This document shows positions 508 to 17,740 of a stretch of 64,000 nt of DNA, one piece after another. The first letter of the stretch is position 1, and the number at the start of each line of letters is the position of its first letter. The notes under the pieces were generated by a model. It saw only the letters and a program-made list of their open reading frames with translations. It had not been told where the DNA came from and searched no databases. Location of the stretch: positions 124,001 to 188,000 of the forward strand of contig BPKC01000001.1 of assembly GCA_026004935.1 (NCBI GenBank). Direction: 5' to 3'. Position numbers and translations under genes: made by a program. This DNA comes from Rhodothalassiaceae bacterium. GTDB lineage: Bacteria; Pseudomonadota; Alphaproteobacteria; Sphingomonadales; Rhodothalassiaceae.

Positions 508-2382
508 TCACGCGGCGGGCGTCAGATGGTTCCAGCGCGGCGGTCTGGGCGCCGGCAGACCGGTTTCCTCGAGGCAGCGGGCGCGCAGCGTCTCGATGTC
601 CGGACCGAAATTGAAGATCGGCAGCTCGTTGCGCCCGGCCCGCATCTCCGCGCGCAGCGCCTCGGTCGCGGCGCGGTCGACGCGGCTCTGCTCGTCCAGC
701 ACGACGCCGTAGCGCCGCGCGCCTTCGCGGGTGACGAGCCCGCGGCGCACCTCGAGCGCGACCAGCTCGGGATCGCGCTCCAGCGGATCGCCCCATCCGC
801 CGCCGCCCCAGGTGATGTAGTGCAGCTGGTCGCCCGCCTCGACGCGGACATTGTCCACCTTGTTGGGCAGCACCTCGCGGCTGCCGTCGGCGCGCTCCAG
901 GATCTTGCGCGCGCGCATGCCGGGCTCGCCGCCGTTCACGCCCCAGGGGTAGGTGAACCAGCGGTCGTCATGGATCGAGATCGTGCCCGGACGCAGGAAG
1001 CGGTAGGTCATGTGGATGCCGTTGCCGCCGCGATGCCGGCCCGCCCCGCCCGAGTCGGGGACCGTCTCGTAGCGCTCGATCCTGAGCGGAAAATACTTCT
1101 CCAGAAACTCGTTCGGCACGTTCGTGAAGCCCGGCCAGAGCGAATGCCCGTCCGGCCCGTCGCCGAAGGGCCGGCCCGGGATGCCGCCGAAGCCGATCTG
1201 GAAGAGCTGGAACCACTGGCCGTTCTCGTCATGGCCCGAATACATGAGATGCGGCGAGGAGGAGAAGCCGGCGGCATTGAGGAACTCCGGCTGGCGCTGG
1301 CCGAGCAGGCCTCCCAGCACGTCGAAGATCCGCCCCAGCGCATGGGTGCGGCATGAGAGCGCCGCCGGAAACCGCGGCTTCAAGAGGCTGCCCTCGGGGA
1401 TGCGGACCTCGACGAGATCGTAGAAGCCGTCGTTGAACAGGATCTGCGGGTCGAACACCATGATCATGTAGATGCCGAAGAACATCTTGAACATGTTCTC
1501 GTTGAGGTAGAAATTGATCGAGGAGATCGACTGCGGATCCGTGCCCGTGAAATCGAGGATCGCCCTGTCTCCCTCGCGCCACATGGTGCAGTGGATCTTG
1601 TACGGGCCATAGCCGCGCCCGTCGTCGCACACGTAGTCGGTGAAGCTGAGCTTCTCCTCGGCGATGGTGTTGCGGATCAGCTCGCGCATGGCGCGGCGGT
1701 TGCGGGCGAGCAGCTCCTCGGTCGCGGCCACATAGACGTCGTCGCCGAAGCGCTCGCACAGCTCGTGCACGCGCCGCGCCGCCACCCGGCAGGAGGCGAT
1801 GAGCGCATTCAGGTCCGCCCGGCACCACTGGGGCACGCGGACATTGTGCATGACGAGGGTGAGGATGTCCTCCTGCAGCTCGCCGCGCCGGTAGAGCTTG
1901 ACCGGCGGGATGCGGATGCCCTCCTGGAAGATGGAATCGGCATCGGTCGGCAGCGACCCGGGCACCTTGCCGCCCACATCCGTCTGGTGGCCGAACATCG
2001 CGGCCCAGCCGATGAGCCGGCCGTTGCGGAAGATCGGCACGAGCACAAGCCAGTCGTTGAGGTGGCTGATCGCGGCCTCGCAGGAATAGGGGTCGTTCAG
2101 CCAGATGACGTCGCCCTCCTCGATCGTTCCCTCGTAGGCCTTGAGAAAGCCGCCGATGAAGCTGCCGAACTGGCCGACGATCATGCGCCCTTCGCGGTCG
2201 GCGATCAGCGGGAAGGCGTCGCCCTGTTCGCGGATCCCCGGGCTCATGGCGGTGCGGAAGAGGGTCGCGTCCATCTCGGCGCGGGCGTTCTTCAGCGCGT
2301 TCTCGATGATGTCCAAGGTGACCGGATCGATGTCGACCTCGGCGAAGGGTTCGGGATTGGTCTCGATGATGCGGGCGGGCAT
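508..2382 (-). CDS. hyuB: Hydantoinase B / oxoprolinase-type subunit
   Basis: A 624-residue HyuB-family protein. Together with HyuA it would perform ATP-dependent hydrolysis of a cyclic amide or imide (5-oxoproline, N-methylhydantoin and caprolactam are known family substrates), or carboxylation as in acetone or acetophenone carboxylases. The N-terminal block starting VDIDPVTLDIIENALKNAR is typical, as is the length. The frame is open further upstream, but the start at 2382 is chosen because GGAGGAG precedes it by a few bases and the upstream codons overlap hyuA with low-complexity sequence. It follows hyuA by 28 bases in one operon with the lyase gene. The substrate is not identifiable from sequence. 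Confidence 0.92.
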   Translation of the reverse strand: MPARIIETNPEPFAEVDIDPVTLDIIENALKNARAEMDATLFRTAMSPGIREQGDAFPLIADREGRMIVGQFGSFIGGFLKAYEGTIEEGDVIWLNDPYSCEAAISHLNDWLVLVPIFRNGRLIGWAAMFGHQTDVGGKVPGSLPTDADSIFQEGIRIPPVKLYRRGELQEDILTLVMHNVRVPQWCRADLNALIASCRVAARRVHELCERFGDDVYVAATEELLARNRRAMRELIRNTIAEEKLSFTDYVCDDGRGYGPYKIHCTMWREGDRAILDFTGTDPQSISSINFYLNENMFKMFFGIYMIMVFDPQILFNDGFYDLVEVRIPEGSLLKPRFPAALSCRTHALGRIFDVLGGLLGQRQPEFLNAAGFSSSPHLMYSGHDENGQWFQLFQIGFGGIPGRPFGDGPDGHSLWPGFTNVPNEFLEKYFPLRIERYETVPDSGGAGRHRGGNGIHMTYRFLRPGTISIHDDRWFTYPWGVNGGEPGMRARKILERADGSREVLPNKVDNVRVEAGDQLHYITWGGGGWGDPLERDPELVALEVRRGLVTREGARRYGVVLDEQSRVDRAATEALRAEMRAGRNELPIFNFGPDIETLRARCLEETGLPAPRPPRWNHLTPAA

Positions 2383-2410: not shown

Positions 2411-4465
2411 CTATGCGGGGTTGATGAGGATGTTGCCGAACCGGTCCACGGCCGCGACATGGTCCGGCAGCACCAGCGTCGTCGAGTCCATCTCCACGAT
2501 GATGGCGGGGCCCGGGATGCGGTCGCCGGCGAGCAGCCGCGCCCGGTCATAGATGCGCGCGGGCCTGCGGCCGCCGGCGACCCAGATCTCGTGCTCGTCG
2601 ATGACGGCACGGCCCGCATCGCCGTCGGTTTCGGGAAGCTCGGCCAGCGCCGCGGCGGCCGGCCGGCCGAGGGCGGCGGCGCGCAGATTCACGATCTCGC
2701 GCGGGGAATCGAGGTTGAAGGTGAACAGCCGCTCATGCTCGGCATCGAAGCGGCGGGCGAGTTCGGAAAGCCCCGTGCCGGCCCGGAAGGCCGCGATGTC
2801 GAGACCGAGGGTCACCTCGAAGGCCTGGCCGGCATAGCGGACGTCCGCCTCGAAGACGAGGGTCTGCTCGGCGCGGGCGACCCCCTCGGCCTCGAGCTCG
2901 GCCGCGACCTGCTCCCCGATCTCGTCCAGCACCGCCAGCACGTCGGCATCCGTGACGTCCTGGCATTGGCGGTTGAAGCTGCGCTGCGTCTCGGCTCTCA
3001 GCCGCGTCGTCGCATCGCCATAGGCGCACAGCACGCCCGGGCTCGGCGGCACGATCACGGGCCAGCTGCCGAGCACGCGCGCAAGCGCATTCGCATGCAG
3101 CGGCCCCGCGCCGCCGAAGGCCATGAGCGCGAAGGCGCGCGGGTCGTAGCCCTGCTGGACGGAGACGAGACGCAGCGCACCCAGCATCGCCTCGTTCGCG
3201 ATGTCGACGATCCCGGCCGCCGCCTGCTCGATGCCGAGCCCGAGCGCCTTCGCCACCTTGCCCACCGCGCGTGCGGCCGCCTCGCGGTCGAGACGCATCT
3301 CGCCGCCGAGCAGCGATTCGGGCAGGTAGCCGAGAACGACATTGGCGTCGGTGACCGTCGGCTCCTCGCCGCCGCGCCCGTAGGCCGCGGGCCCGGGCAC
3401 GGCACCCGCCGACTGCGGGCCGACGCGCAGCGCCCGCGTCAGCTCCGGGACATGGGCGATCGAGCCGCCGCCGGCACCCACGGTGCGGACATCGAGGGCG
3501 GAGGCCCGCACGGTGAGATCCCCGACCGTCGTCTCGCGCCTGAGCCTCGGCGAGCCGTTCTCGATGAGGGCGACGTCCGTCGAGGTCCCGCCCATGTCGA
3601 GCGTCATGACGTTGGCGAATCCGGCGTGGCTCGCCACCCACAGCGCGCCCGCGACACCGCCGGCCGGCCCCGACATCAGCAGATTGACCGGGGCTTCCGT
3701 GGCCTTCTCCGCCGACATCAGCCCGCCGTCCGAGCGCAGCAGCCGCAGCCGGCCGCGCATGCCCCATTCGCCGAGCGACTCCTTCAGATGCCGGACGTAG
3801 CGGGCGACCACGGGGCGCACGGCGGAATTGGCGACCGTGGTCAGCGTGCGCTCGTATTCCTGCATCTCCGGCAGGATGTCGTGGGAGATCGTGATCGGCA
3901 GATCGGGGAAGACCTCGGCCGCGATCTCGGCGGCGCGGCGCTCGTGGACCGGGTTCACATAGGAATTGATGAGGCTGATCGTGATGGCCTCGACGGTTTC
4001 TTCCGCCTTCAGCCTCTCGAGCCTTCTGCGCAGCTCGTCCTCGTCCAGCGGGCGCACGATCGCGCCGTCGGCGCCGATGCGTTCGGGCACCTCGATGGTG
4101 CACTCGAGCGGGGCGAGCGGCTCGGGCTTCGGCCAGACGATCCAGGCTGCGAGCCCGCCCGGCACATAGGAGCGGGCGATCTGCAGCACCTGCCGGTAGC
4201 CCTCGGTGACAAGCAGGCCGACGCGGGCGATCTTGCCTTCGAGCACGGCATTGGTCGCGACCGTCGTGCCGTGCATGAAGACGGCGATCGCGGCCGGATC
4301 GACCCCGGCTTCCGCCGCGAGCCTCTTCGCCCCGGCGATGACCGCGCGCGAGGGGTCATCCGGCGTGGAGGGCACCTTGGCGCGCCAGGTGCGCCCCGTC
4401 TCCTCCTCGATCAGCAGCAGGTCGGTGAAGGTGCCGCCGACGTCGCATCCCAGTCTGAAGGCCAT
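2411..4465 (-). CDS. hyuA: Hydantoinase A / oxoprolinase-type ATP-binding subunit
   Basis: A 684-residue HyuA-family protein. The N-terminus has the actin-fold phosphate-binding motif DVGGTFTD (residues 8-15), and a second one, LDMGGTSTDVALI, lies mid-protein, as in N-methylhydantoinase A and caprolactamase alpha subunits. It should activate the cyclic amide with ATP and act as a heteromer with HyuB in the cytoplasm. Its ATG begins at the base directly next to the stop of the HMG-CoA-lyase-like gene (no gap), which suggests translational coupling. The operon is probably driven from the promoter near 5.45-5.5 kb, which carries a GntR-type palindrome. Hydantoin, lactam or imide substrates all remain possible. 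Confidence 0.92.
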   Translation of the reverse strand: MAFRLGCDVGGTFTDLLLIEEETGRTWRAKVPSTPDDPSRAVIAGAKRLAAEAGVDPAAIAVFMHGTTVATNAVLEGKIARVGLLVTEGYRQVLQIARSYVPGGLAAWIVWPKPEPLAPLECTIEVPERIGADGAIVRPLDEDELRRRLERLKAEETVEAITISLINSYVNPVHERRAAEIAAEVFPDLPITISHDILPEMQEYERTLTTVANSAVRPVVARYVRHLKESLGEWGMRGRLRLLRSDGGLMSAEKATEAPVNLLMSGPAGGVAGALWVASHAGFANVMTLDMGGTSTDVALIENGSPRLRRETTVGDLTVRASALDVRTVGAGGGSIAHVPELTRALRVGPQSAGAVPGPAAYGRGGEEPTVTDANVVLGYLPESLLGGEMRLDREAAARAVGKVAKALGLGIEQAAAGIVDIANEAMLGALRLVSVQQGYDPRAFALMAFGGAGPLHANALARVLGSWPVIVPPSPGVLCAYGDATTRLRAETQRSFNRQCQDVTDADVLAVLDEIGEQVAAELEAEGVARAEQTLVFEADVRYAGQAFEVTLGLDIAAFRAGTGLSELARRFDAEHERLFTFNLDSPREIVNLRAAALGRPAAAALAELPETDGDAGRAVIDEHEIWVAGGRRPARIYDRARLLAGDRIPGPAIIVEMDSTTLVLPDHVAAVDRFGNILINPA

Positions 4466-5425
4466 TCACGCCGCTCCCTGTCCGTCCTTCGCTGTCTCAG
4501 CCGGCCAGCCCGCCGGCAAGCCCGCGCGCGCAAGCGCCGCCGGCAGCGGCCGCCCGAGCTCGCCCTCGAGCCAGCGCGTCGTCTCGATGAGCGCGGAGAT
4601 GTCGAGGCCGGCCCTGAGCCCCGAGCGGGCCAGCAGATAGGCCACGTCTTCTGTCGCGACATTGCCGGTGGCCGCCGGGGCGAAAGGACAGCCGCCCAGC
4701 CCGCCGATGCTCGCGTCCACCCGCCGCACGCCCGCGCGGACCGCCGCCCAGACATTGGCTGTGCCGGTGTTGCGGGTGTCGTGGAAATGCGCCCGCCACG
4801 GGATCGCGGGCACCCGTTCCCGCGCCGCGGCGAAGAGCTCCTCGACCTCGGCCGGCACCGCGACCCCGATGGTGTCGGCGAGCGCCAGCTCGTCCGGGCC
4901 GGCCGCGGCGAGCTCCTCGGCCAGCGCCAGCACCCGCTGCGGCGGCACGCGGCCCTCGAAGGGGCAGCCGAAGGCCGCCGAGATCATCGCCGTGGTCTTG
5001 AGCCCCTCGGCGCGTGCGCGGGCGATGATGCGGCAGGCGGCCCTCACCGATTCGGCCATGCTCATGCCCTGATTGCGCCGGGAGAAGCTGTCGCTTGCGA
5101 CGATCACGAGCCCCGCCTCGTCGATCCCGCGCGCGCCGGCGCGGGTGGCCAGCGCCCGGTCGAGCCCGCGTTCGTTGAGGACCAGCCCGATCCAGGAGAC
5201 GTCCGGCCGGTCCGGCAGGCGCGCCACCAGCGCCTCGGCATCGGCCATCTGCGGCACCTTCTTGGGGTGGACGAAGCTGGTGACCTCGAAGCGCCGGACG
5301 CCCGCCGCGATCAGCCGGTCGATGAGCGCGAGCTTGGTCGCGGTCGGGACCGCCTCGGACGCGTTCTGGAGGCCGTCGCGCGGGCCCACCTCTGTCAGCA
5401 TGATCTCGCCGCCGCCGTCCTGCAT
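4466..5425 (-). CDS. Hydroxymethylglutaryl-CoA lyase family protein
   Basis: A 319-residue TIM-barrel lyase of the HMG-CoA lyase family, which cleaves 3-hydroxy-3-methylglutaryl-CoA or related tertiary 3-hydroxyacyl-CoAs to acetyl-CoA and a keto acid. By comparison with the human enzyme the active site is complete: GPRDGLQ (R16, D17), E47 in FEVTSFV, D184 in LADTIG, the metal pair H213 and H215 in HFHDT, the loop cysteine C246 in GLGGCPF, and N255. The start at 5425 is preceded by an AAGGCGGCAAGG stretch; the longer open frame upstream runs through the operator and is antisense to the CoA-transferase. First gene of the lyase-hyuA-hyuB operon. The true acyl-CoA may differ from HMG-CoA. Confidence 0.9.
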   Translation of the reverse strand: MQDGGGEIMLTEVGPRDGLQNASEAVPTATKLALIDRLIAAGVRRFEVTSFVHPKKVPQMADAEALVARLPDRPDVSWIGLVLNERGLDRALATRAGARGIDEAGLVIVASDSFSRRNQGMSMAESVRAACRIIARARAEGLKTTAMISAAFGCPFEGRVPPQRVLALAEELAAAGPDELALADTIGVAVPAEVEELFAAARERVPAIPWRAHFHDTRNTGTANVWAAVRAGVRRVDASIGGLGGCPFAPAATGNVATEDVAYLLARSGLRAGLDISALIETTRWLEGELGRPLPAALARAGLPAGWPAETAKDGQGAA

Positions 5426-5463: not shown

Positions 5464-5475
5464 ATTGTATACAAT
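5464..5475. promoter_or_regulatory. Primary GntR/FCD operator, lyase-CoA-transferase divergent promoter
   Basis: Perfect 12-bp palindrome ATTGTATACAAT, 39 bases upstream of the lyase start and about 150 upstream of the CoA-transferase start. The same 12-mer occurs at 8321-8332 beside the GntR-family gene. FCD-type GntR regulators commonly bind TTGTATACAA-like sites, so control by the linked regulator is the simplest reading. Confidence 0.8.
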
Positions 5476-5626: not shown

Positions 5627-6814
5627 ATGAGCGGGATGGCGGGAGCACTGGAAGACATCCGGGTCGTGGAATGCGGGCAGCTGATCGCGGGGCCCTTCTG
5701 CGGTCAGCTGCTGGCGGACCACGGCGCCGAGGTGATCAAGGTGGAGCCGCCGGGCAAGGGTGATGCGATGCGCGAATGGGGCCGCAACAAGCCCGTCTGG
5801 TGGCCGGTGATCGCCCGCAACAAGAAGTCGGTGACCCTCGACCTGCGCCGGCCGGAGGGCCAGGAGCTGTTCAGGAAGCTCGTGGCGAAGGCCGACATCG
5901 TGATCGAGAACTTCCGCCCCGGCACGATGGAAAAATGGGGGCTGGGCTACGACGAGCTCTCCCGCATCAATCCGGGCCTCATCATGGTGCGGGTCTCCGG
6001 CTTCGGCCAGACGGGGCCGTATGCGCCGCGCGCCGGCTATGGCGCCATCGGCGAGGCGATGGGCGGCTTGCGCAATCTGTGCGGCGATCCCTCGACCCCG
6101 CCCTCGCGGGTCGGGATTTCGATCGGCGATTCGCTGGCGGCGACCTTCGCCTGTCTCGGCGCGCTGATGGCGCTGCACCACCGCCACCGCACCGGCCGCG
6201 GCCAGGTCGTCGATTCGGCGATCTATGAGGCGGTGCTGGCGATGATGGAATCCACCATTCCCGAATACACCGAGGCCGGCTTCATCCGCGAGCGCACCGG
6301 CTCGATCCTGCCCAAGGTGGCCCCCTCCAACGTCTATCCCTCGAAGGACGGGGATCTGCTCATCGCCGCCAATCAGGACACGGTGTTCCGGCGGCTGTGC
6401 GAGGCGATGGGCCGCCCGGAGCTCGCCGACGATCCGCGCTATGCCACCCACACCGCCCGCGGCGAGCACCAGGCGGAGCTGGATGAACTGATCGCGGCAT
6501 GGACGCGCGAGCACACGAGCGCGGAGCTGATGGACCTGCTCGTGCGCCACGGCGTGCCGGCGGGCAAGATCTACAAGGCGCCCGACATGCTCGCCGATCC
6601 GCACTTCAAGGCGCGCGAGGCGATCGTCAAGGTCGAGCATCCCGAGTTCCGGAATCTCTGGATGCAGAACGTCTTCCCGAAGCTGTCGGATACGCCCGGC
6701 CGCATCCGCTGGCCGGGCCCGCCCCTTGGCGCCCACAACGAGGAGGTCTATGGCGGGGTTCTGGGGCTCGATGACGAGGAGATCGCCCGGCTCAGGGCCG
6801 AAGGGATCATCTAG
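5627..6814 (+). CDS. Class III CoA-transferase (CaiB/BaiF/Frc family)
   Basis: A 395-residue family III CoA-transferase, which moves CoA between a carboxylic acid and an acyl-CoA donor. The N-terminus (RVVECGQLIAGPFCGQLLADHGAEVIKVE) and the catalytic aspartate in GISIGDS (D168, equivalent to Asp169 of formyl-CoA transferase) are intact. ATG 5627 is chosen; a GTG six bases upstream is an alternative, and GGAGGGAAGAG at about 5607-5617 serves either. It is transcribed away from the lyase operon from a shared, operator-bearing promoter, and the downstream amidase starts 40 bases later, so they probably form one transcript. It plausibly makes the CoA thioester that the lyase then cuts; that link is inference. 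Confidence 0.92.
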   Translation: MSGMAGALEDIRVVECGQLIAGPFCGQLLADHGAEVIKVEPPGKGDAMREWGRNKPVWWPVIARNKKSVTLDLRRPEGQELFRKLVAKADIVIENFRPGTMEKWGLGYDELSRINPGLIMVRVSGFGQTGPYAPRAGYGAIGEAMGGLRNLCGDPSTPPSRVGISIGDSLAATFACLGALMALHHRHRTGRGQVVDSAIYEAVLAMMESTIPEYTEAGFIRERTGSILPKVAPSNVYPSKDGDLLIAANQDTVFRRLCEAMGRPELADDPRYATHTARGEHQAELDELIAAWTREHTSAELMDLLVRHGVPAGKIYKAPDMLADPHFKAREAIVKVEHPEFRNLWMQNVFPKLSDTPGRIRWPGPPLGAHNEEVYGGVLGLDDEEIARLRAEGII

Positions 6815-6854: not shown

Positions 6855-7487
6855 ATGAAGGACCTCGAGCGGGACTACCGGCGCGCCGGATTCGGCAACC
6901 GGCTCGGCTTCGGAGAGCGCCCCGCGCTCGTCGTCGTCGACATGGTGATGGCCTATTTCGAGCCGTCCTCGCCGCTTTACGCGGGCGTCGAGGGGATCGT
7001 CGCGCCGGCGAAGGCGGTGCTTGAGGCCGCGCGGGCGGCCGGGGTGCCCGTGATCTACACGGTCGTGCGCTACCACCCGTCGGGCCGCGACGGCGGATGG
7101 TTCTTCCGCAAGGTCTCCGCGCTGAAGGTGTTCGCCGGCGACGGGCCGCTCGGCGCGATCCACCCCGAGCTCGCCCCGCGCGCCGACGAGCTCGTCGTGG
7201 TCAAGCAGTATGCGAGCGCCTTCTTCGGCACCTCGCTCGCCGCAACGCTCGCGGCCGCGGGTCGAGACAGCTGCGTGATCATGGGGCTGTCCACCTCGGG
7301 CTGCGTGCGGGCCAGCGCGCTGGATGCGCTGCAGCACGGCTTCATCCCCCTCGTCGTGGCGGATGCCTGCGGCGATCGCGACCGCAGGGTCCACGAGGCC
7401 AATCTCTTCGATCTCGCCGCCAAATACGCGGATGTCGTGGAAAGCGGCGAGGTCATCGCGGCCTTCGCGCGGCTGCGGGATCGCTAG
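6855..7487 (+). CDS. Isochorismatase-fold amidase (N-carbamoylsarcosine/maleamate amidohydrolase-like)
   Basis: A 210-residue cysteine hydrolase with the family triad: D29 in VVVDMV, K117 in VVVKQYASAFFGTSLA and C150 in STSGCVRASA. The FGNRLGFGERPALVVVD opening and the HEANLFDLAAKYADVV block resemble N-carbamoylsarcosine amidases and NicF-type maleamate amidohydrolases more than true isochorismatases. Beside HyuAB, a carbamoyl- or amide-releasing step (an N-carbamoyl amino acid, or a half-amide of a dicarboxylate) fits well. Start 6855 follows GGAGGCCGGAG; the longer frame overlaps the CoA-transferase and has no family sequence. Its TAG shares a CTAG tetramer (7484-7487) with the stop of the opposing GntR gene. 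Confidence 0.9.
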   Translation: MKDLERDYRRAGFGNRLGFGERPALVVVDMVMAYFEPSSPLYAGVEGIVAPAKAVLEAARAAGVPVIYTVVRYHPSGRDGGWFFRKVSALKVFAGDGPLGAIHPELAPRADELVVVKQYASAFFGTSLAATLAAAGRDSCVIMGLSTSGCVRASALDALQHGFIPLVVADACGDRDRRVHEANLFDLAAKYADVVESGEVIAAFARLRDR

Positions 7488-8197
7488 GCGGCGGACGGGT
7501 CCGCGCCATCGGGGGGCGCGGCCACCTCGGCCGGACGGCCCGCCCCCGCCTGCGCCGCCGCCCGGACCTCCTCGAAGACCGCCCGGCCCGCCCGGATGTG
7601 GGCGAGCATGAGTGCGGCGGCCCAGTCCGGATCGCGATGCCGGATCGCCTCGACCAGCTGGCGGTGCTGGGCGTTGGAACGGGCGATGTCCTCGCGCCGG
7701 TAGCGCATGGCGGTGCGCGAGAGGATCGGCGGCTGGATCAGCCGCGGCATCAGCAGCGCCAGCCGCTCGCTCCCGGCCGCCTCGATCACGAGATCGTGGA
7801 AGCGGCGATTGGCGGCGAGAAAGGCGTCGGGATCGGGGGACGGGCCGCCCGCGACCAGCGCATCGATGGCATCGACGGCACGCAGCATCGCCGCCATCTG
7901 CTCCTCACTTGCGCGCAGCGCCGCGCGCCGCGCGCCGTAGGACTCCAGAATCGCCCTCAGCTCGAAGATCTCGGCGATGTCCTCGTCGCGCCAGCTGGTC
8001 ACGAAGGTCCCATGCCCCTGCGCGACGGTGACGTAGAATTCCGCGGCCAGGCGCCGGATCGCCTCGCGCACGGGGGTGCGGCTGACCCCCGTGTCGGCCG
8101 CGAGCTGCTCCTCGGTCAGCCGCGCACCCGGCGGATAGACGCCGGAGAGGATCCGGCGCCGGATCTCCGTATACGCCCGCTCGGACGCCTTCGACAT
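7484..8197 (-). CDS. GntR-family transcriptional regulator with FCD domain
   Basis: A 237-residue regulator. The N-terminal winged HTH (about residues 6-70) includes RLTEEQLAADTGVSRTPVREAIRRL; the C-terminal helical FCD ligand domain (about 75-210) includes ELRAILESYGARRAA and FLAANRRFHDLVIEAAGS. Such proteins usually repress catabolic genes until a small organic acid binds. ATG 8197 is preferred to the GTG two codons earlier because GGGAG lies 8 bases before it. It diverges from the racemase operon across a 207-base region that carries a perfect ATTGTATACAAT, and the same palindrome occurs at the lyase/CoA-transferase promoter. It is therefore the likely controller of region 1 and of itself. 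Confidence 0.93.
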   Translation of the reverse strand: MSKASERAYTEIRRRILSGVYPPGARLTEEQLAADTGVSRTPVREAIRRLAAEFYVTVAQGHGTFVTSWRDEDIAEIFELRAILESYGARRAALRASEEQMAAMLRAVDAIDALVAGGPSPDPDAFLAANRRFHDLVIEAAGSERLALLMPRLIQPPILSRTAMRYRREDIARSNAQHRQLVEAIRHRDPDWAAALMLAHIRAGRAVFEEVRAAAQAGAGRPAEVAAPPDGADPSAA

Positions 8198-8287
8198 GTC
8201 CACGCTCCCGCAGCGCGGCCGCCCTGCTGCGCCGCCACCCGGCTTTCTAGCACCGCTGCACCCGTCTGCCCAGCCCCGCGGGCCGTA

Positions 8288-8320: not shown

Positions 8321-8332
8321 ATTGTATACAAT
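8321..8332. promoter_or_regulatory. Primary GntR/FCD operator overlapping the racemase-operon promoter
   Basis: Perfect palindrome ATTGTATACAAT, identical to the one at 5464-5475. A -35-like TTGACC at 8306-8311 is followed by TACAAT (15-base spacer) or CAATAT (17-base spacer) inside or overlapping the palindrome. A bound regulator would therefore cover the -10 region of the operon starting at 8405, a repressor-like layout. Confidence 0.8.
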
Positions 8333-8404: not shown

Positions 8405-9160
8405 ATGGCCCGGCGCAGGATTCTGGTGATCGTGCCGATCCCGATGGACGAGGCGGGCGTCGCCCAGCGCGAGGCCCAGCTTGCCGGCCTGCGGATCGCC
8501 CCGGACACCGAGGTCGTCTTCCAGGCGGTGAGCTGGGGTGCGGCGCTCGGGGATTCCTACCACGACATGCTGCTCATGGACATGTCGGTCTTCGAGGCGG
8601 GGCTGAAGGCGGAAGAGGCGGGCTTTGATGCCGTCATCGTCGACACCGTGAGCGATTCCGGCCTCGCCGCCCTGCGCTCCCGGCTTGCGATCCCGGTGGT
8701 CGGCCCCGGCCAGGCGGCGCTGCATCTGGCGGCGATGCTTGGTCACCGCTTCACGATTCTCACCATGTGGGACGAGTGGTTCCCCCTCTACCGCAAGATT
8801 CTGACCGAATACGCGTTGTGGCCGCGGCTTGCGTCGATGCGCTCGATCCGCACGCGCCCGGATCTCAAGGAGCTGCTGGCGGGCAAGGAGGAGGTGGTCT
8901 TCGCGAAGCTGCTCGACGAGGCCCGGGCCGCGATCGCGGAGGACGGCGCCGACGTCATCGTCCTCGGTTCCACGACGATGCATCAGTCCCACGGCCATCT
9001 CGCGGCCAATCTGCCGGTGCCGGTGATCAATCCCGGGGTCGTCGCCTTCCGCATGACCGAGCTCCTGCTCGATCTCGGCCTCGCCCACTCCAAGAAGGCC
9101 TATCCGACCCCGGAGGTGCTGCAGGACGATGCGATTCTGGAAAGGAGGCCGCCGCGGTGA
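8405..9160 (+). CDS. Asp/Glu/hydantoin racemase-family protein lacking both catalytic cysteines
   Basis: A 251-residue protein with the racemase-superfamily layout (Asp/Glu racemase, hydantoin racemase, maleate isomerase, arylmalonate decarboxylase). The two positions that carry the catalytic cysteines in classic members appear as T81 (VIVDTVSDSGLAALR) and S189 (VIVLGSTTMHQ), and the whole protein has no cysteine at all. The family fold is still clear from PVVGPGQAALHLAAMLG and VPVINPG. It is thus unlikely to be an ordinary two-cysteine racemase; it may catalyse another reaction, or bind rather than convert a ligand. First gene of a four-gene operon; its stop overlaps the GTG of the next gene. 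Confidence 0.8.
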   Translation: MARRRILVIVPIPMDEAGVAQREAQLAGLRIAPDTEVVFQAVSWGAALGDSYHDMLLMDMSVFEAGLKAEEAGFDAVIVDTVSDSGLAALRSRLAIPVVGPGQAALHLAAMLGHRFTILTMWDEWFPLYRKILTEYALWPRLASMRSIRTRPDLKELLAGKEEVVFAKLLDEARAAIAEDGADVIVLGSTTMHQSHGHLAANLPVPVINPGVVAFRMTELLLDLGLAHSKKAYPTPEVLQDDAILERRPPR

Positions 9161-9603
9161 GCGGGATCGTGAGAGAGGAGTCCATCGGTGCGGTCTACCG
9201 CCTCGACGAGGCCGGACGGCTTCCTTACGAATACTATGTCGACATCGTCACCAAGCGCTACTTTCACGGCGTCGACAACAAGAACCTCGATCTCGTGCTG
9301 GCCTGCTTCCACGAGGACGCCTTCCTGCACGAGCTCACCTCCGACACGCGCCATGACGGGCGCGATCGCGGCATCCGCCGGATGTTCGAGGATCTCTTCG
9401 CCCATCACGGCCGCATCTGGCACGGCAACTTCGTCCACACCGTGGATGTCGAGGCCGAGGCCATCTGCTCGCAGTTCTCCGTCGAGATCGAAAGCCCCGA
9501 AGGCGAGATGCTGCGCTACGAGAACTGCAACCGCTTCCATCTGAAGGACGGCCGGTTCCAGCGCGTCTTCGTCTACATGAGCGGCGAAAATCTTCTGAAG
9601 TAG
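9157..9603 (+). CDS. SnoaL/NTF2-like protein, first of a tandem pair
   Basis: A 148-residue single-domain protein of the SnoaL/NTF2-like fold, seen in the opening YEYYVDIVTKRYFHGVDNKNLDLVLACFHEDA and the closing FQRVFVYMSGEN strand. This fold serves cyclases, dehydratases (for example BaiE-type bile acid dehydratases), isomerases and epoxide hydrolases, so the exact reaction is open. It starts at GTG 9157 inside GTGA, overlapping the stop of the racemase-like gene, with AAAGGAGG at 9141-9148. It is clearly paralogous to the next gene (shared LACFH, IRRMFEDLF/FFA and YVYMSG-type blocks). A dehydration or isomerisation step in the cluster's pathway is a reasonable inference. Confidence 0.85.
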   Translation: MSGIVREESIGAVYRLDEAGRLPYEYYVDIVTKRYFHGVDNKNLDLVLACFHEDAFLHELTSDTRHDGRDRGIRRMFEDLFAHHGRIWHGNFVHTVDVEAEAICSQFSVEIESPEGEMLRYENCNRFHLKDGRFQRVFVYMSGENLLK

Positions 9604-9612
9604 GAGGCGGCG

Positions 9613-10011
9613 ATGCAGTATCCGTGCACCCTCGACCGCGACGGCCTCGTGGATCTCGCCATCCGCCGCTACTTCGGCAGCGTCGACCGCAAGGACCTCG
9701 ACGCGACGCTGGCCTGCTTTCACGACGAGGCGCTGCTCACCGTCCAGACGGCCTTCGTCACCCATGCGGGCAAGGCCGCGATCCGGCGGATGTTCGAGGA
9801 CTTCTTCGCGAGCTGGACGCGGATCGTCCACCGCGACTTCGAGATCACGGCGGACCCCGGCAACGGCCGGATCGCGGCCAGCTTCATCGCCGAACTCACG
9901 GCGCCGGACGGCGCCGTCACCAGGCTTCACAACACCAATTTCTGGCGCGTGCGCGGCGAGCGCTTCCAGGAGGTCTATGTCTACATGAGCGGGCAGAACG
10001 TGCTGGTCTGA
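9613..10011 (+). CDS. SnoaL/NTF2-like protein, second of a tandem pair
   Basis: A 132-residue SnoaL/NTF2-like protein lying 9 bases after its paralogue. It shares the RYFGSVDRKDLDATLACFHDEA opening, the IRRMFEDFF helix and the VYVYMSGQNVL end with the upstream copy, but lacks about 16 N-terminal residues and differs strongly in the middle, where pocket residues lie. Either a heteromer of the two or two successive steps on related intermediates would fit. AGGAGG sits 6-11 bases before ATG 9613. The TonB-dependent receptor follows 64 bases later in the same direction. Confidence 0.85.
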   Translation: MQYPCTLDRDGLVDLAIRRYFGSVDRKDLDATLACFHDEALLTVQTAFVTHAGKAAIRRMFEDFFASWTRIVHRDFEITADPGNGRIAASFIAELTAPDGAVTRLHNTNFWRVRGERFQEVYVYMSGQNVLV

Positions 10012-10075
10012 GCCGCCGCAAGGGTCGGGGCGGCGATCGAGGCTGAAGGCTCCAGGGCAGGTGAAGGAGGAAACC

Positions 10076-12604
10076 ATGGCGGAACGGGCAGGTGGACGGC
10101 GCAGCGGCGGCGTGGATCGCGGGCGGTGGCTTGCGGCCGCGGCGGCCGGAACGGCGCTTGCGGTGGTCCTCGGCGCCGGCGCGCCGCGGGCGCAGACGGC
10201 CGACCAGACGGAAGCGGCCGGCGAGCAGACCCTTGAGGAGATCGTGGTGACGGCCCGGCGCGTCGCCGAGTCGCTGCAGAACGTGCCGGCGACGGTCTCC
10301 GTGCTGACCAGCCGCACCATCGAGACCGCGGGCATCGAACGCGTAGAGGACTATGTCGCGCTGACCCCCGGGGTCACCATCGTCACCAACACCGCCGAGG
10401 TCGCGGACTCGCAGGTCAACATCCGCGGCATCAACGGCGCCCGCGACGCCGAAAACAACTATGCGCTGATCATCGATGGCGTGCTGCGCACCAATCCCGC
10501 GGCGCTCAACCGCGAATACAGCGATCTCCAGCAGATCGAGGTGCTGAAGGGGCCGCAGGGCGCGCTCTACGGGCGCAACGCGGCCGCCGGCGCCATCGTC
10601 ATCACGACGAAGAGACCCGGCAACGAGGTCGAAGGCGAGGTGAAGGTCTCGGGCGCCGAGGACAACACCTTCCTCGTCTCCGGCTCGCTGTCCGGTCCGC
10701 TGGTCAAGGACGAGCTCTTCGTGCGGCTGCATGCCGACTACCGCACGAGCGACGGCTACTACCGCAACAGCTTCCTCGACAGCAAAACCATCGACGGCTT
10801 CGAGGGCTGGAACATCGACGGCCGGATTCTCTGGGAGCCGTCGGCGGCGACCAGCCTCGACACCCAGATCCACTACGGCGAGGTGGACGCGAACGCCATC
10901 GTCTTCAACGCGTCCTTCCAGCTTCCGGCCTTCGCCGAGTTTCTCGGCGTGCCCGAGTTCTTCGAGGACGTGAACGACCACCGCTTCGTGTTCCAGCCCA
11001 ACATCACCTCCTTCAACAACCAGACCGCACTCGAGCTGTCGACGAAGCTCGACCATGACCTCGAATGGGCGACGCTGACGGCCTGGCTGCTCTATTCGGA
11101 CATCGACAACAACTTCGGCGCCGACGGAACCTCGGGCGCCTTCGGCTTCTTCAACGACGAGCCGACCTGCCGCCAGACGACGGCCGAGCTGTTCGCCGCC
11201 GGCGTCACGCTGCCGCCGCCGCAGATCCTGGGGCCCGTTCCCGAATTTTCGATCTTCGGCCCCTACACGCCGACGAGCTGCGACGGCACGCAGTTCCAGG
11301 TCCGCAATCAGGAGGACGTGAGCTTCGAGCTGCGGCTTGCGTCACCGGACGGCCAGGCGCTGCGCTGGCTGGCCGGCGTCTACTATCTGCACATCGACCG
11401 GGAGGTCGGCGTGAATCTGGGCATCGACAAGGGCGCGGGCATCACCCGGGCGCTCTTCGTGCCGCCGTCGGGCGCGAACCCCACCGAGCAGCTGGTCCAC
11501 GACAATTTCCGGACCAACGTCTACGCCGTCTTCGGCCAGCTCGCCTATGATCTGACCCCCGATCTCGAAGGCTCGGTGGCGCTGCGCTACGACCGCGAGG
11601 TGCGGCGGGTGCGCAATCTCGTGCCAGCGGATGCGCGCACGCAGTTCGTCGACTTCGACGGGCCGCCGTTTGCCGGTGGCGCGCCGCTCAATCCGGGCCT
11701 GTCGCCGATCATCAACCCGAGCGGCGTGATCCCGCCGCAAAAGCGCGCCTTCGAGCAGGTCCAGCCGAAGGTGAGCCTGACCTGGCGGGTGGATCCCGAG
11801 TGGACGCTGTTCGCCAACTGGGGCGTGGGCTTCCGCAGCGGCGGCTTCAACAACCTCGGCTCGGCGGCGACCGTGGATCTCTTCTTCAACAGCACGATCG
11901 GCGCGGGCGTGAAGATCGCCGACGTCTTCCGCAAGGAGACCTCGAACGCCACCGAGGCGGGCTTCCGCGGGCGGCTCTTCGGCGGCCGGCTCCGGCTGGA
12001 GGGCGCCTACTACCACACCATCGTCGACGACATGCAGTTCTTCGAGTTCTTCGTCGGCCCCTTCGGGCTGCTGCGCGTCGTCTCCAACATCGACAAGGTG
12101 CGCATCGACGGCTTCGAGGTGAGCGCGAACGCGCGCCCCGCCTCCTGGCTCGATCTCTACGCCGCCTTCAACTTCACCGACTCGAGCATCAAGCGCAACG
12201 ACTCGCGCCCCGATACCGTCGGCAACAAGTCGCCGCTGACCGCCAAGTACACCTTGAACGGCGGCGCGATGCTGACGCTGCCGGTGCTGGATGATGTCGA
12301 CTGGATCCTGCGCGCCGACGGCCGGCTCACCGGCCCGACCTGGTTCCACACGGTCCAGGACGAGCAGCGGCCGACGATCTTCGGCGTGCCGGCCGACTAC
12401 AGCGTCACCCGGCGCGACGCCTTCTTCCTGCTGGACCTGCGCACGGGTTTCGAGACCGCGCGCTGGTCGCTCATGGCGTTCGCCACGAATCTGACGAAGG
12501 AGCGCTATCTGGCCGAGGTGATCCCGGCGATCGAGTTCGGCGGCAGCTTCGTCTCGCCGGGGGCGCTGCGCCGCTTCGGCGCCGAGTTCCGGGTGAAGTT
12601 CTAG
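10076..12604 (+). CDS. TonB-dependent outer-membrane receptor 1
   Basis: An 842-residue receptor for energy-coupled uptake across the outer membrane. A basic N-terminus and a hydrophobic AAAAGTALAVVLGAG stretch form the signal peptide, followed by the LEEIVVTARR TonB-box-like segment, the plug domain (VYDGVLR-type region IIDGVLRTNP and IEVLKGPQGALYGRNAAAGAI) and a long beta-barrel ending in VKF. ATG 10076 is chosen: GAAGGAGGAAACC precedes it directly. It is the last gene of the operon that begins with the racemase-like gene, so it probably brings in the compound degraded by region 1. The ligand cannot be told from sequence. A strong hairpin terminator follows at 12667. Confidence 0.95.
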   Translation: MAERAGGRRSGGVDRGRWLAAAAAGTALAVVLGAGAPRAQTADQTEAAGEQTLEEIVVTARRVAESLQNVPATVSVLTSRTIETAGIERVEDYVALTPGVTIVTNTAEVADSQVNIRGINGARDAENNYALIIDGVLRTNPAALNREYSDLQQIEVLKGPQGALYGRNAAAGAIVITTKRPGNEVEGEVKVSGAEDNTFLVSGSLSGPLVKDELFVRLHADYRTSDGYYRNSFLDSKTIDGFEGWNIDGRILWEPSAATSLDTQIHYGEVDANAIVFNASFQLPAFAEFLGVPEFFEDVNDHRFVFQPNITSFNNQTALELSTKLDHDLEWATLTAWLLYSDIDNNFGADGTSGAFGFFNDEPTCRQTTAELFAAGVTLPPPQILGPVPEFSIFGPYTPTSCDGTQFQVRNQEDVSFELRLASPDGQALRWLAGVYYLHIDREVGVNLGIDKGAGITRALFVPPSGANPTEQLVHDNFRTNVYAVFGQLAYDLTPDLEGSVALRYDREVRRVRNLVPADARTQFVDFDGPPFAGGAPLNPGLSPIINPSGVIPPQKRAFEQVQPKVSLTWRVDPEWTLFANWGVGFRSGGFNNLGSAATVDLFFNSTIGAGVKIADVFRKETSNATEAGFRGRLFGGRLRLEGAYYHTIVDDMQFFEFFVGPFGLLRVVSNIDKVRIDGFEVSANARPASWLDLYAAFNFTDSSIKRNDSRPDTVGNKSPLTAKYTLNGGAMLTLPVLDDVDWILRADGRLTGPTWFHTVQDEQRPTIFGVPADYSVTRRDAFFLLDLRTGFETARWSLMAFATNLTKERYLAEVIPAIEFGGSFVSPGALRRFGAEFRVKF

Positions 12605-13317: not shown

Positions 13318-13518
13318 CCGTGCGCCTTCCCTTCCGCCGTCGCACCGCCGCCCGCCGCCCTTCCCTAGCACGCCGTTGCGGTGGCGGCGAAGCGCCGGCG
13401 GAGCCCTCGGCTTGTGCGGCGCGGGCGTCTGCCTTACGTTTCTTTCCGATCTGCGATCGTGGCCGGCGGCCAACAAGAATGTTCCGCACGCGGCGGCAGA
13501 CAGGGGAGGGAGCGGGCC

Positions 13519-14418
13519 ATGGCGAAACGGGATGCCTCCGGGGCGCGGACGCAGGATCCTCCCGTCACCGTCGCCCAGCGGGTGCGCGCGAAGATGGAGG
13601 AGCTGGCGCCCTCCGAGCGGCGGGTGGCGCGGCTGCTGCTTACGAACTATCCCGCCGCGGGGCTGCAGTCCATCAACCAGCTCGCCCGCGAGGCCGGCGT
13701 GAGCGCGCCGACGGTGCTGCGGTTTCTCGCGCGGATCGGGTTTCCGGGCTATGCGCCGTTCCAGGATGCCCTGCGCGAGGAGCTGCGCCAGCGCAGCGTC
13801 TCGCCGCTGGCACTGGACGATCTGCCCGAGGCGGGCACGGGCGCGCGCCATGCCATGGCGGCGCGGCTGGCGCGGGCGATCGAGCACAGCTTCGCGCTCG
13901 TGACCGACTTCGACTTCTCCGCCGCCATCGATCTTCTCGCCGACCGTCGCCGGCCGGTGCTCGTCACCGGCGGGCGGTTCTCGGACCCGCTGGCGCGGTA
14001 TCTCTGGCTGCATCTGCGCGAGATCCGGCCGCGCACGTTCCACCTGCCGGCGGATCCGCTCATCCGCAATCCGGCGCTTGTGGATCACGGGCCGCGGTCG
14101 GTGGCGGTCGTCTTCGACTTCCGCCGCTACCAGGAGACGACCGCCGATTTCGCGGAACGCGCGGCGGAGCGCGGGGTCAGCATCGTTCTCGTGACCGATC
14201 CCTATCTTTCGCCGATTTCGCGCCTGGCCAAGGTGGTGCTCACCGTCGATGTCGCCGCGGTCACGCCCTTCGACAGCTACACGCCGGCGTTTGCGCTCAT
14301 CGAGGTGCTGGTCGCCGAGCTCGTCGCCCGTCTCGGCGACGAGGCGCGGCGCCGGATGGCGGAGGCCGACGCGCTGAGAGGCGTGCCGCGCACGCCGGCC
14401 GGGCCCTCACGCGGCTGA
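13519..14418 (+). CDS. RpiR/MurR-family transcriptional regulator
   Basis: A 299-residue regulator. The N-terminal HTH_6 domain (about residues 20-95) includes SINQLAREAGVSAPTVLRFLARIGFPGYAPFQ; the C-terminal SIS domain (about 125-255) normally senses a phosphorylated sugar or another small ligand. Start 13519 follows GGGGAGGGAGCGGG; the frame is open further upstream without homologous sequence. Its end overlaps the end of the opposing amidase gene by 12 bases. TTCCGATC at 13446-13453 in its upstream region resembles half of the GTTCCGATCGGAAC palindrome found before TonB receptor 2, which hints that it controls region 2 and itself; this is tentative. Confidence 0.9.
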   Translation: MAKRDASGARTQDPPVTVAQRVRAKMEELAPSERRVARLLLTNYPAAGLQSINQLAREAGVSAPTVLRFLARIGFPGYAPFQDALREELRQRSVSPLALDDLPEAGTGARHAMAARLARAIEHSFALVTDFDFSAAIDLLADRRRPVLVTGGRFSDPLARYLWLHLREIRPRTFHLPADPLIRNPALVDHGPRSVAVVFDFRRYQETTADFAERAAERGVSIVLVTDPYLSPISRLAKVVLTVDVAAVTPFDSYTPAFALIEVLVAELVARLGDEARRRMAEADALRGVPRTPAGPSRG

Positions 14419-15855
14419 GAGCGGCGGGCGCGGGCTGCGCCATTCCCGCTTCCGCTCGATCCAGGCCGCGGCCGCCATCAGCCGGGCGTCCTCGCCGCGG
14501 CGCGCGACGAGCTGGATCCCGAGCGGCATGCCGGCGGCGTCGAACACGCCGGGCAGGGAAGCGGCGGGCTGTCCCGAGACATTGAAGGGCAGGGTGAAGA
14601 ACAGCCAGGCGAGCACGGCCTCGGCATGGGCGCGCCAGTCGGGATTGGAGAAGGGAAAGGCGTCGGCGGCGGGCGCGGCGCGCGGCACCGCGGGCAGCAG
14701 CAGCAGATCGCCGTCCGCGCAAGAACCCGCGATCACGCGCGCCGCGATTCTCAGAGCCTCTTGGGCGCGGGCGAGCGCGGGAGCGGGCATTCGCCGCCCC
14801 GCCTCGATCAGGCCCGCGACCACGGGCGAGAGGGTGGCGAGATCGAAGGGCGTGCCGGTCGCCTCCTCGACGGCTGCGATCGCGGCCGCCGCCTCGGCCG
14901 CCGCCAGCGTGAGGAAGGCGTCCGAGATCGCCGCGAAATCATGGGTGAAGGAGACCTCCGCGATCCGTGCTCCGGCCGCCTCCAGCTCACGGGCCAGCTC
15001 CGTGACGGCCGCGGCGAGGGCGGGATCGGTCGCAAGCGGCCCCTCGTCGGTGATGAGACCGATGCGCGGGCGCCCGAGTTCGGCCGCGCCTGCGGCCGCG
15101 AGCAGGTCGGCGCGGTCCGGCAGCGCGTAAGGGTCGCCCGGAGCGGGGCCGCAGAGGATGTCGAGATAGGCCGCGGCGTCGCGCACGCTGAGCGAGATCA
15201 CGCCCTCTGAAGCGAGCCCCTGCCAGACGTCGCCCAGATAGGGGGCGTAGCTGGTGCGTCCGCGCGACGGCTTGAAGCCGAAGACGCCGCAGAAGGCGGC
15301 CGGCACCCGGATCGAGCCCGCCCCGTCGCTCGCATGGGCGAAGGGCACGAGCCGCGCCGCGACCGCCGCCGCGGCACCTCCGCTCGATCCGCCGGCGGCG
15401 CGTGCGGGATCCCAGGGGTTGCGGGTCGTCCCGTGCACCGGGGAGACGCTGGAAATCGAGAACCCGAACTCGGGCACCGCCGTCTTGCCGCAGGGCAGCA
15501 GCCCGGCCGCCCGCCCCCGCGAGACGATCAGGCTGTCGCCCGGCACGGGCAGGGATGCGAGGGCGGCGAGTCCGTTGCTGGTGGGCCAGGGCGCGCAGAA
15601 AAGCGTCATGTCCTTCAGCAGCCAGGGCAGCCCCGCGAGCGGACTGCCGCCCGGCACCCCGCCCCGCCGAAGCGCCGCGCGGGCCGCGGCGGGATCGAAG
15701 ACCGTGGTGAGCCCGAGCCGCGGGTTGAGGGCCGCGTGGGCGTCCTCGAGCCAGGCGATGAGATCCTCCGGCCGGCAGCGCCCGGCCGCGATCGCCGCCG
15801 CAGCCGCCATTCCGTCGCGGCCGCTCCGGCCGTCCAGTCCGAAAAATCCGGTCAT
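14407..15855 (-). CDS. Amidase signature family hydrolase
   Basis: A 482-residue amidase-signature enzyme that hydrolyses a carboxamide or carbamoyl bond. The Ser-cisSer-Lys machinery is visible: the lysine in LPWLLKDMT, the glycine/serine block AGGSSGGAAAAVAA, and the nucleophile region SDGAGSIRVPAAFCGVFGFKPSRGR. The length is normal for the family, and no tRNA-dependent GatA partner genes are nearby, so a catabolic amidase is more likely than GatA. It diverges from the second isochorismatase-fold gene across a 121-base region with a perfect 14-bp palindrome 37 bases upstream of the amidase start. The substrate is unknown. Confidence 0.92.
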   Translation of the reverse strand: MTGFFGLDGRSGRDGMAAAAAIAAGRCRPEDLIAWLEDAHAALNPRLGLTTVFDPAAARAALRRGGVPGGSPLAGLPWLLKDMTLFCAPWPTSNGLAALASLPVPGDSLIVSRGRAAGLLPCGKTAVPEFGFSISSVSPVHGTTRNPWDPARAAGGSSGGAAAAVAARLVPFAHASDGAGSIRVPAAFCGVFGFKPSRGRTSYAPYLGDVWQGLASEGVISLSVRDAAAYLDILCGPAPGDPYALPDRADLLAAAGAAELGRPRIGLITDEGPLATDPALAAAVTELARELEAAGARIAEVSFTHDFAAISDAFLTLAAAEAAAAIAAVEEATGTPFDLATLSPVVAGLIEAGRRMPAPALARAQEALRIAARVIAGSCADGDLLLLPAVPRAAPAADAFPFSNPDWRAHAEAVLAWLFFTLPFNVSGQPAASLPGVFDAAGMPLGIQLVARRGEDARLMAAAAWIERKREWRSPRPPLSAA

Positions 15856-15891
15856 GGTCGCTCCCGTGGCCGCGGTTCGCCCGGCCCATGT

Positions 15892-15905
15892 GTAATGATC
15901 ATTAC
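15892..15905. promoter_or_regulatory. Perfect 14-bp palindrome in the amidase/isochorismatase divergent promoter
   Basis: GTAATGATCATTAC is a perfect palindrome in an otherwise GC-rich region, 37 bases before the amidase start and 72 before the hydrolase start. A regulator binding here could control both directions. The motif differs from both the GntR-type operator and the palindrome at 19183; which protein binds it is unknown. Confidence 0.6.
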
Positions 15906-15976
15906 GCTTGCGTCCTCAGGCTCTCATACCGTAGTGATGTGTCGCGGACAATGTCAAAAGGGAAAGGGCGGCGGCC

Positions 15977-16639
15977 GTGCATGAGAGCGGTGACTGCGGG
16001 CGGAATCTTCCGTTCCGGTGCGCGGAGCAGACCGCGCTTCTGGTCGTGGACGTGCAGGGCTACGTCGGCCATCCGCAGCGGGGCATGTTCGCGCGCGCCG
16101 ACGTGCCGGAAACCGTGCGGGATGCCTATTTCGACCGCCTGAGGGGAACGGTGCTGCCGAACATCGCGGCGCTCGCCGACGCCTGCCGGGACAAGGGTGC
16201 CGAGGTCCTCTACACGGTGATCGAGAGTCTCACCCGCGACGGGCGCGAGCGCAGCCTCGACCACAAGATCTCGGGCATCTTCGTCGCGCCCGGCTCGCCG
16301 GAGGCCCGGGTTCTGCCCGAGGTCGCGCCCCGCGGCGACGAGATGGTGATCCCCAAGACCTCCTCGTCGGTCTTCTGCTCGACGAACATCGACTACATCC
16401 TGCGCAACCTCGGCATCCGCCAGCTGATGATCGTCGGCCTGTTCACCGAGCAGTGCGTGCTCTCGGCGGTGCGCGATGCCGCCGATCTCGGCTATCTCGT
16501 CACCGTGGCGGCGGACGCCTGCGCGTCGCTGCTGCCCGAGCGCCACGAGATGGGGCTGAAGCTCTGCGAGGGCTACGCGCGCGTCCTGACGACGGCCGAC
16601 GCGCTCGCGGAACTTTCGGTGATGGCCGCCCGCGGCTAG
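15977..16639 (+). CDS. Isochorismatase-fold cysteine hydrolase 2
   Basis: A 220-residue hydrolase with the family triad D25 (LLVVDVQGYV), K127 (VIPKTSSSVF) and C160 (GLFTEQCVLSAVRDA). It belongs to the broad nicotinamidase/isochorismatase group; SSVFCSTNIDYILRNLGIRQLMIVGLFTEQCV is like peroxyureidoacrylate/ureidoacrylate amidohydrolases and related amidases, but the substrate is not settled. It starts with GTG 15977 after a GGGAAAGGG stretch; an ATG four bases on is out of frame. Its TAG lies in a CTAG tetramer shared with the stop of the opposing deacylase gene, the same arrangement as in region 1. Confidence 0.88.
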   Translation: MHESGDCGRNLPFRCAEQTALLVVDVQGYVGHPQRGMFARADVPETVRDAYFDRLRGTVLPNIAALADACRDKGAEVLYTVIESLTRDGRERSLDHKISGIFVAPGSPEARVLPEVAPRGDEMVIPKTSSSVFCSTNIDYILRNLGIRQLMIVGLFTEQCVLSAVRDAADLGYLVTVAADACASLLPERHEMGLKLCEGYARVLTTADALAELSVMAARG

Positions 16640-17736: not shown

Positions 17737-17740
17737 CCCC

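Follow-up and report, generated by a model that had tools for sequence, protein, structure and literature searches.

The window, by which we mean the whole stretch of 64,000 nucleotides that was analysed, carries a gene cluster with two divergent promoters that includes a gene for a cysteine-free protein of the racemase fold. The features of the cluster are, by position:

508..2382 (start estimated), minus strand: HyuB, hydantoinase/oxoprolinase subunit; groups with the HyuB proteins of 17 other loci
2411..4465, minus strand: HyuA, hydantoinase/oxoprolinase subunit (Hydantoinase_A, 309 bits)
4466..5410, minus strand: HMG-CoA-lyase-like enzyme (HMGL-like, 155 bits; HMG-CoA lyases in the PDB, E 4e-66)
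5464..5475, no strand: second copy of ATTGTATACAAT, between the HMG-CoA-lyase-like and CoA-transferase genes
5629..6814, plus strand: type III CoA-transferase (CoA_transf_3, 450 bits)
6855..7487, plus strand: isochorismatase-type cysteine amidohydrolase (PF00857)
7484..8203, minus strand: GntR/FCD-type regulator, transcribed away from the racemase-fold gene (GntR and FCD domains)
8321..8332, no strand: ATTGTATACAAT, a perfect palindrome and candidate GntR operator between the GntR and racemase-fold genes
8405..9160, plus strand: cysteine-free Asp/Glu/hydantoin-racemase-fold protein of the Thr81/Ser189 clade (251 aa)
9157..9603, plus strand: SnoaL/NTF2-like partner B (SnoaL_2, 41 bits)
9613..10011, plus strand: SnoaL/NTF2-like partner A (SnoaL_2, 43 bits)
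10061..12604, plus strand: TonB-dependent outer-membrane receptor (plug and barrel domains)

Partner B starts with GTG, and the two genes share 4 bases at the racemase-fold stop codon. Partner A belongs to a sequence cluster spanning 57 loci and has weak similarity to ketosteroid isomerase in the PDB. The TonB-dependent receptor is a probable uptake protein. HyuA matches N-methylhydantoinase (E 6e-134) and 5-oxoprolinase (E 7e-117) in the PDB, and the closest PDB entries to the amidohydrolase are N-carbamoylsarcosine amidohydrolase and 3ot4/3uao, which we take to be maleamate amidohydrolase. The nearest NCBIfam models for the CoA-transferase are succinyl-CoA-dependent dicarboxylate CoA-transferases, below their cut-off. 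A separate, possibly catabolic group lies at 13381–16639 and contains an RpiR-type-regulator-like gene (13381–14418), an amidase-like gene (14407–15855) and another isochorismatase-family hydrolase (15977–16639).

The first-pass annotation had described the 8405–9160 product as a racemase-family protein with a well-kept fold, in which T81 and S189 occupy the positions of the catalytic cysteines. Profile and structure bear out the fold: PF01177 (Asp_Glu_race) covers residues 25–217 with 106 bits (cut-off 31), and the AlphaFold2 model (pLDDT 89.7) has the two-domain, pseudo-symmetric architecture of the superfamily, with the allantoin racemases 3qvk/3qvj as nearest solved folds (TM 0.83). Phmmer and profile searches of PDB sequences likewise ranked allantoin/hydantoin racemases first. 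The superfamily is usually presented as a fold with two thiols (one for arylmalonate decarboxylase, AMDase), and maleate isomerase uses two cysteines at those same family positions. In the allantoin racemase of Klebsiella the catalytic residues are Cys79 and Cys184 (PMC12661438). The phmmer and profile alignments to the K. pneumoniae enzyme (3qvj) place T81 at Cys79 and S189 at Cys184, and a clade-derived HMM aligned to Cys/Cys relatives independently reproduced both columns. The agreement of the three alignments identifies T81 and S189 as the replaced cysteines and rules out misaligned catalytic positions. In the PDB alignments, entries 3qvk/3qvl have Ser at both columns. The clade as a whole lacks the cysteine pair of hydantoin and allantoin racemases. 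The window's protein likewise has neither cysteine of maleate isomerase, and has S189 and T81 at the family columns where AMDase has its proton donor Cys188 and Gly74.

Two other parts of the earlier description needed qualification. The rule that these enzymes use two cysteines (one in AMDase) holds for the Klebsiella enzyme but is not universal: in the allantoin racemase sequence of Pseudomonas fluorescens, Gly stands opposite T81 and Glu opposite D84, with the second Cys kept, and Gly74 of AMDase is itself a departure from the two-Cys plan (PMC4996985). The product does have zero cysteines in its 251 residues, as had been stated, but this is unremarkable by itself: at the window's Cys frequency of 0.79% the probability is about 0.14, and 67 of the 89 matched sequences have 1–6 cysteines at other positions, which together rule out total absence as a signal. 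The unusual feature is the loss of both catalytic cysteines. In public databases, proteins of the clade are annotated as 'aspartate/glutamate racemase family' or 'hydrogenase expression protein HupH', and both names are probably misleading.

The Thr/Ser replacement defines a conserved clade. A scan of GTDB genomes, open also to relatives other than the Thr/Ser clade, found at least 575 confirmed relatives, and the 80 loci kept from it all belong to the clade. Across 398 genomes sampled phylum-wide, scores separated clearly, with at least 343 bits in six genomes (the window's own included) and at most 125 bits for the next. Among the matches listed, clade members share 46–74% identity and come from Sphingomonadales, Alcanivoracaceae, Halomonadaceae, Pseudomonas, rhizobia, Tistrella, Variovorax and Bacillaceae, the closest named relative being Iodidimonas muriae (74%). 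Of the 95 aligned members, 92 have Thr and 3 have Ser at position 81, and every one has Ser at 189. The clade is monophyletic: the tree places the Thr/Ser group on one side of a branch with 100/100 support, together with two more diverged, Cys-less tandem paralogs. Conservation in 95 sequences rules out a one-genome oddity or decay.

The conservation extends well beyond the two replaced positions. All 95 members carry the motifs [DN][TS]xxD (80–84), LGSTTM[HY] (187–193) and NPG (209–211), and S189, D84, W122, W125, Y129, K131, R146, G160-K161-E162, T190-T191-M192 and N209-P210-G211 are invariant; H193 is kept in 94. The 22 Cys/Cys relatives have non-clade residues at positions 121, 122, 125, 129, 131, 193 and 209, and 21 of the 22 at position 191. 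D84 is present in all 22 as well, hence it is no clade-specific gain. Judged from these alignments, the predicted pocket (W122, W125, K131, T191, H193 and N209) is changed as a set relative to the Cys/Cys relatives.

We also identified related Cys-less proteins and one doubtful host. At three loci, a more diverged tandem paralog without either catalytic Cys lies directly downstream of the clade gene (L034:10787–11527, L035:10765–11421 and L036:10768–11457) and may supply the other half of a heteromeric enzyme. A second, independent Cys-less PF01177 lineage (L132, L138, L139 and L142; larger loci L157 and L160–L162) carries AAFGDPG at one catalytic site and AGAPL at the other; it has 100/100 support on the tree and lies far from the window's clade. 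A clade gene also occurs in a Bacteroidota MAG (L047), a doubtful true host because the flanking genes are shared with a Porticoccaceae MAG (L052); its placement is probably a binning error.

The gene neighbourhood is conserved with the clade. We compared 53 clade relatives with full flanks to 20 control loci, which were PF01177 relatives outside the clade (Cys/Cys or other), some with shorter flanks. A SnoaL/NTF2 gene lay near all 53 clade genes, as it does in the window (9157–9603 and 9613–10011), and near none of the controls. HyuA was nearby in 42 of the 53 (2 of 20 controls), leaving 11 without it, HyuB was nearby in 41 (0 of 20), the CoA-transferase in 41 (1 of 20), the HMG-CoA-lyase-like gene in 40 (0 of 20) and the isochorismatase-type hydrolase in 31 (0 of 20). 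TonB receptors accompanied 37 of the 53. A GntR gene was nearby in 40, but also in 10 of the 20 controls. LeuD (11/53) and LeuC (9/53) are rare in the clade clusters. Genomes with LeuCD in the cluster (L101, L063, L065 and L092) have 2–3 LeuC copies, and those with a cluster without LeuCD (the window's own, L056 and L060) have one. The same gene set is found in Bacillota; Halobacillus (L101), for example, has CoA-transferase, isochorismatase-type hydrolase, HyuA, HyuB, LeuC, LeuD, SnoaL and racemase-fold genes in one compact row.

Some clusters depart from this arrangement. In L035 and L036, MmgE/PrpD and PEP-mutase-family genes replace LeuCD and the HMG-CoA lyase, and genes for an FAD-dependent oxidoreductase and a tautomerase-like protein are also present. 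Near the L082 cluster (14378–17915) are a RutA paralog (383 bits, below the RutA cut-off), an FAD-linked oxidase and an alpha/beta hydrolase, a group that would suit a cyclic amide substrate. In L067 (11216–15449) and its Pseudomonas/Vreelandella relatives, two tandem flavoenzymes of the old-yellow-enzyme type (mycofactocin OYE 2/BaiCD-like, below cut-off) directly follow the racemase-fold/SnoaL pair.

Across the 2.9 Mb genome there are just two exact matches to the palindrome ATTGTATACAAT, one at each of the cluster's two divergent promoters. This suggests that one GntR regulon spans both promoters; from the position of the palindrome, we infer that the GntR regulator may bind it. Together the 80 related loci (1.45 Mb) hold 69 copies of the 10-base core, with 33 of them within 300 bases upstream of a racemase-fold ORF and most of the others 0.7–3.6 kb upstream, near 2 kb in many loci. 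Further copies lie about 7 kb upstream in L060 and L101 (Bacillota). The gene had been described as leading an operon; the operon context stands, but the gene is not merely a leader, being one arm of an apparent two-promoter GntR regulon.

We propose, with a probability of about 0.6, that the racemase-fold protein is a cysteine-free isomerase or lyase that works with its SnoaL partner(s), under GntR control, in the catabolism of an N-heterocycle (imide, hydantoin or lactam). The first-pass annotation had anticipated either a changed chemistry or a ligand-binding role. The invariance of the altered pocket favours changed chemistry rather than simple decay, and the protein may be an isomerase, a lyase or a hydrolase that uses Thr/Ser or an acid. 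Both catalytic thiols would have been replaced in the ancestor of the clade (Cys to Thr81, Cys to Ser189) and the remaining pocket rebuilt, to give a soluble and probably catalytic protein. Serine and threonine are poor acid/bases, hardly able to stand in for thiols. The fungal epimerase OpaE retains 4.8% of its activity as a C90S mutant and at most 0.3% as C199S (PMC12661438). Both considerations imply that the acid-base chemistry of the clade protein would have to come from elsewhere. D84, three residues past the lost Cys, is the natural candidate base by alignment, and its carboxylate could act with E162, K161 or H193. In the P. fluorescens allantoin racemase, Glu78 lies three residues after the missing Cys and reportedly takes over its role. 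K161 and E162 align next to the pocket-capping loop of OpaE. The hydroxyls of T81, S83, S189, T190 and T191 may hold a planar enolate or oxyanion, with no two-thiol 1,1-proton transfer. In the human trans-3-hydroxyproline enzyme, Thr replaces a Cys of a two-Cys racemase, and the reaction changes from epimerisation to elimination (PMC8142540). Elimination is an attractive guess here too, as an analogy only: that dehydratase belongs to the unrelated proline racemase superfamily and has one Cys replaced.

The gene set probably breaks down a small N-containing ring, and homology suggests an order of steps with the racemase-fold protein and its coupled SnoaL partner(s) at the pathway entry. The TonB receptor would take up a small cyclic N-compound, which the racemase-fold protein and SnoaL would convert by isomerisation or elimination, without redox chemistry. 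HyuAB would then open the ring with ATP and the isochorismatase-type hydrolase would remove the amide nitrogen. Where present, LeuCD could hydrate the resulting unsaturated dicarboxylate before its activation by the CoA-transferase. Cleavage by the HMG-CoA-lyase-like enzyme would yield acetyl-CoA and an oxo-acid (citramalyl-CoA- or HMG-CoA-type). One lyase can serve both citramalyl-CoA and HMG-CoA, but it has another fold (PMC6689899). A substituted maleimide/citraconamate or a related imide would, hypothetically, fit this order, a chemical guess prompted by LeuCD, the CoA-transferase and the HMG-CoA lyase.

Three other readings deserve consideration. The protein could be a catalytically dead racemase fold, a scaffold or sensor that binds the pathway substrate or its SnoaL partner without chemistry. 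The loss of both nucleophilic/basic thiols, the fixed SnoaL neighbour and the tandem paralog in L034–L036, as expected of a non-catalytic partner subunit, are consistent with such a role. Yet Proteobacteria and Bacillota share the same unvarying pocket residues, which is unusual for decay, a whole new residue set was gained, and the gene is retained even without adjacent HyuAB. We regard this reading as unlikely. A genuine racemase or epimerase of a hydantoin-like or allantoin-like intermediate, with a carboxylate or His in place of Cys, would agree with the allantoin racemases as closest folds, with the Gly and Glu of the P. fluorescens sequence, and with the classical hydantoin trio completed by the N-methylhydantoinase-like HyuA and the N-carbamoylsarcosine-amidohydrolase-like hydrolase. 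It is nonetheless distinctly improbable: the P. fluorescens enzyme retains its second Cys whereas the clade protein has neither, and pathways from hydantoin to amino acids need no CoA-transferase, HMG-CoA lyase or LeuCD. We consider it very improbable that the protein is a maleate-isomerase- or AMDase-like enzyme with its Cys lost, acting in dicarboxylate cis-trans isomerisation or decarboxylation. The resemblance of the hydrolase to 3ot4/3uao would put a maleate-type intermediate nearby, and AMDase is among the structural matches, but at a lower TM (about 0.6), and both families need at least one Cys where this protein has none. Cys188 is the sole proton donor of AMDase (PMC4996985).

A literature search on the Thr/Ser clade, the gene combination, and imide/citraconate pathways with hydantoinase returned nothing relevant, and the gene set and its regulon are apparently undescribed. 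If the racemase-fold protein is a cysteine-free isomerase or lyase, a widespread clade that lacks both thiols yet has a frozen new pocket would demonstrate that this fold can do chemistry without cysteine. Its regular association with SnoaL, HyuAB, the amidohydrolase, the CoA-transferase, the HMG-CoA lyase and, in some genomes, LeuCD suggests a catabolic route, and the two-promoter regulon offers a direct handle on substrate discovery.

Among known systems, the allantoin racemases HpxA/AllR (3qvj, 5lfd/5lg5) share the whole-length fold (TM 0.83), about 29–30% identity and an Asp or Glu at D84. The clade differs from them in having T81 and S189 for both Cys, N209 for D/E, T191 for G, the new W122, W125, K131, GKE and H193, and a different gene neighbourhood. 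AMDase has the same superfamily fold and, with Gly74, is also off the two-Cys plan at the first position, but it keeps Cys188 where the clade protein has Ser189. OpaE (9qbx), a fungal epimerase of the Asp/Glu racemase family, is related at 20% identity and TM 0.75 but requires Cys90 and Cys199. Hydantoin/creatinine degradation resembles the cluster, by homology, in its trio of N-methylhydantoinase, carbamoyl amidohydrolase and hydantoin racemase. Here, in contrast, SnoaL, a CoA-transferase, an HMG-CoA lyase and sometimes LeuCD join the trio, which implies a route ending in a dicarboxylate.
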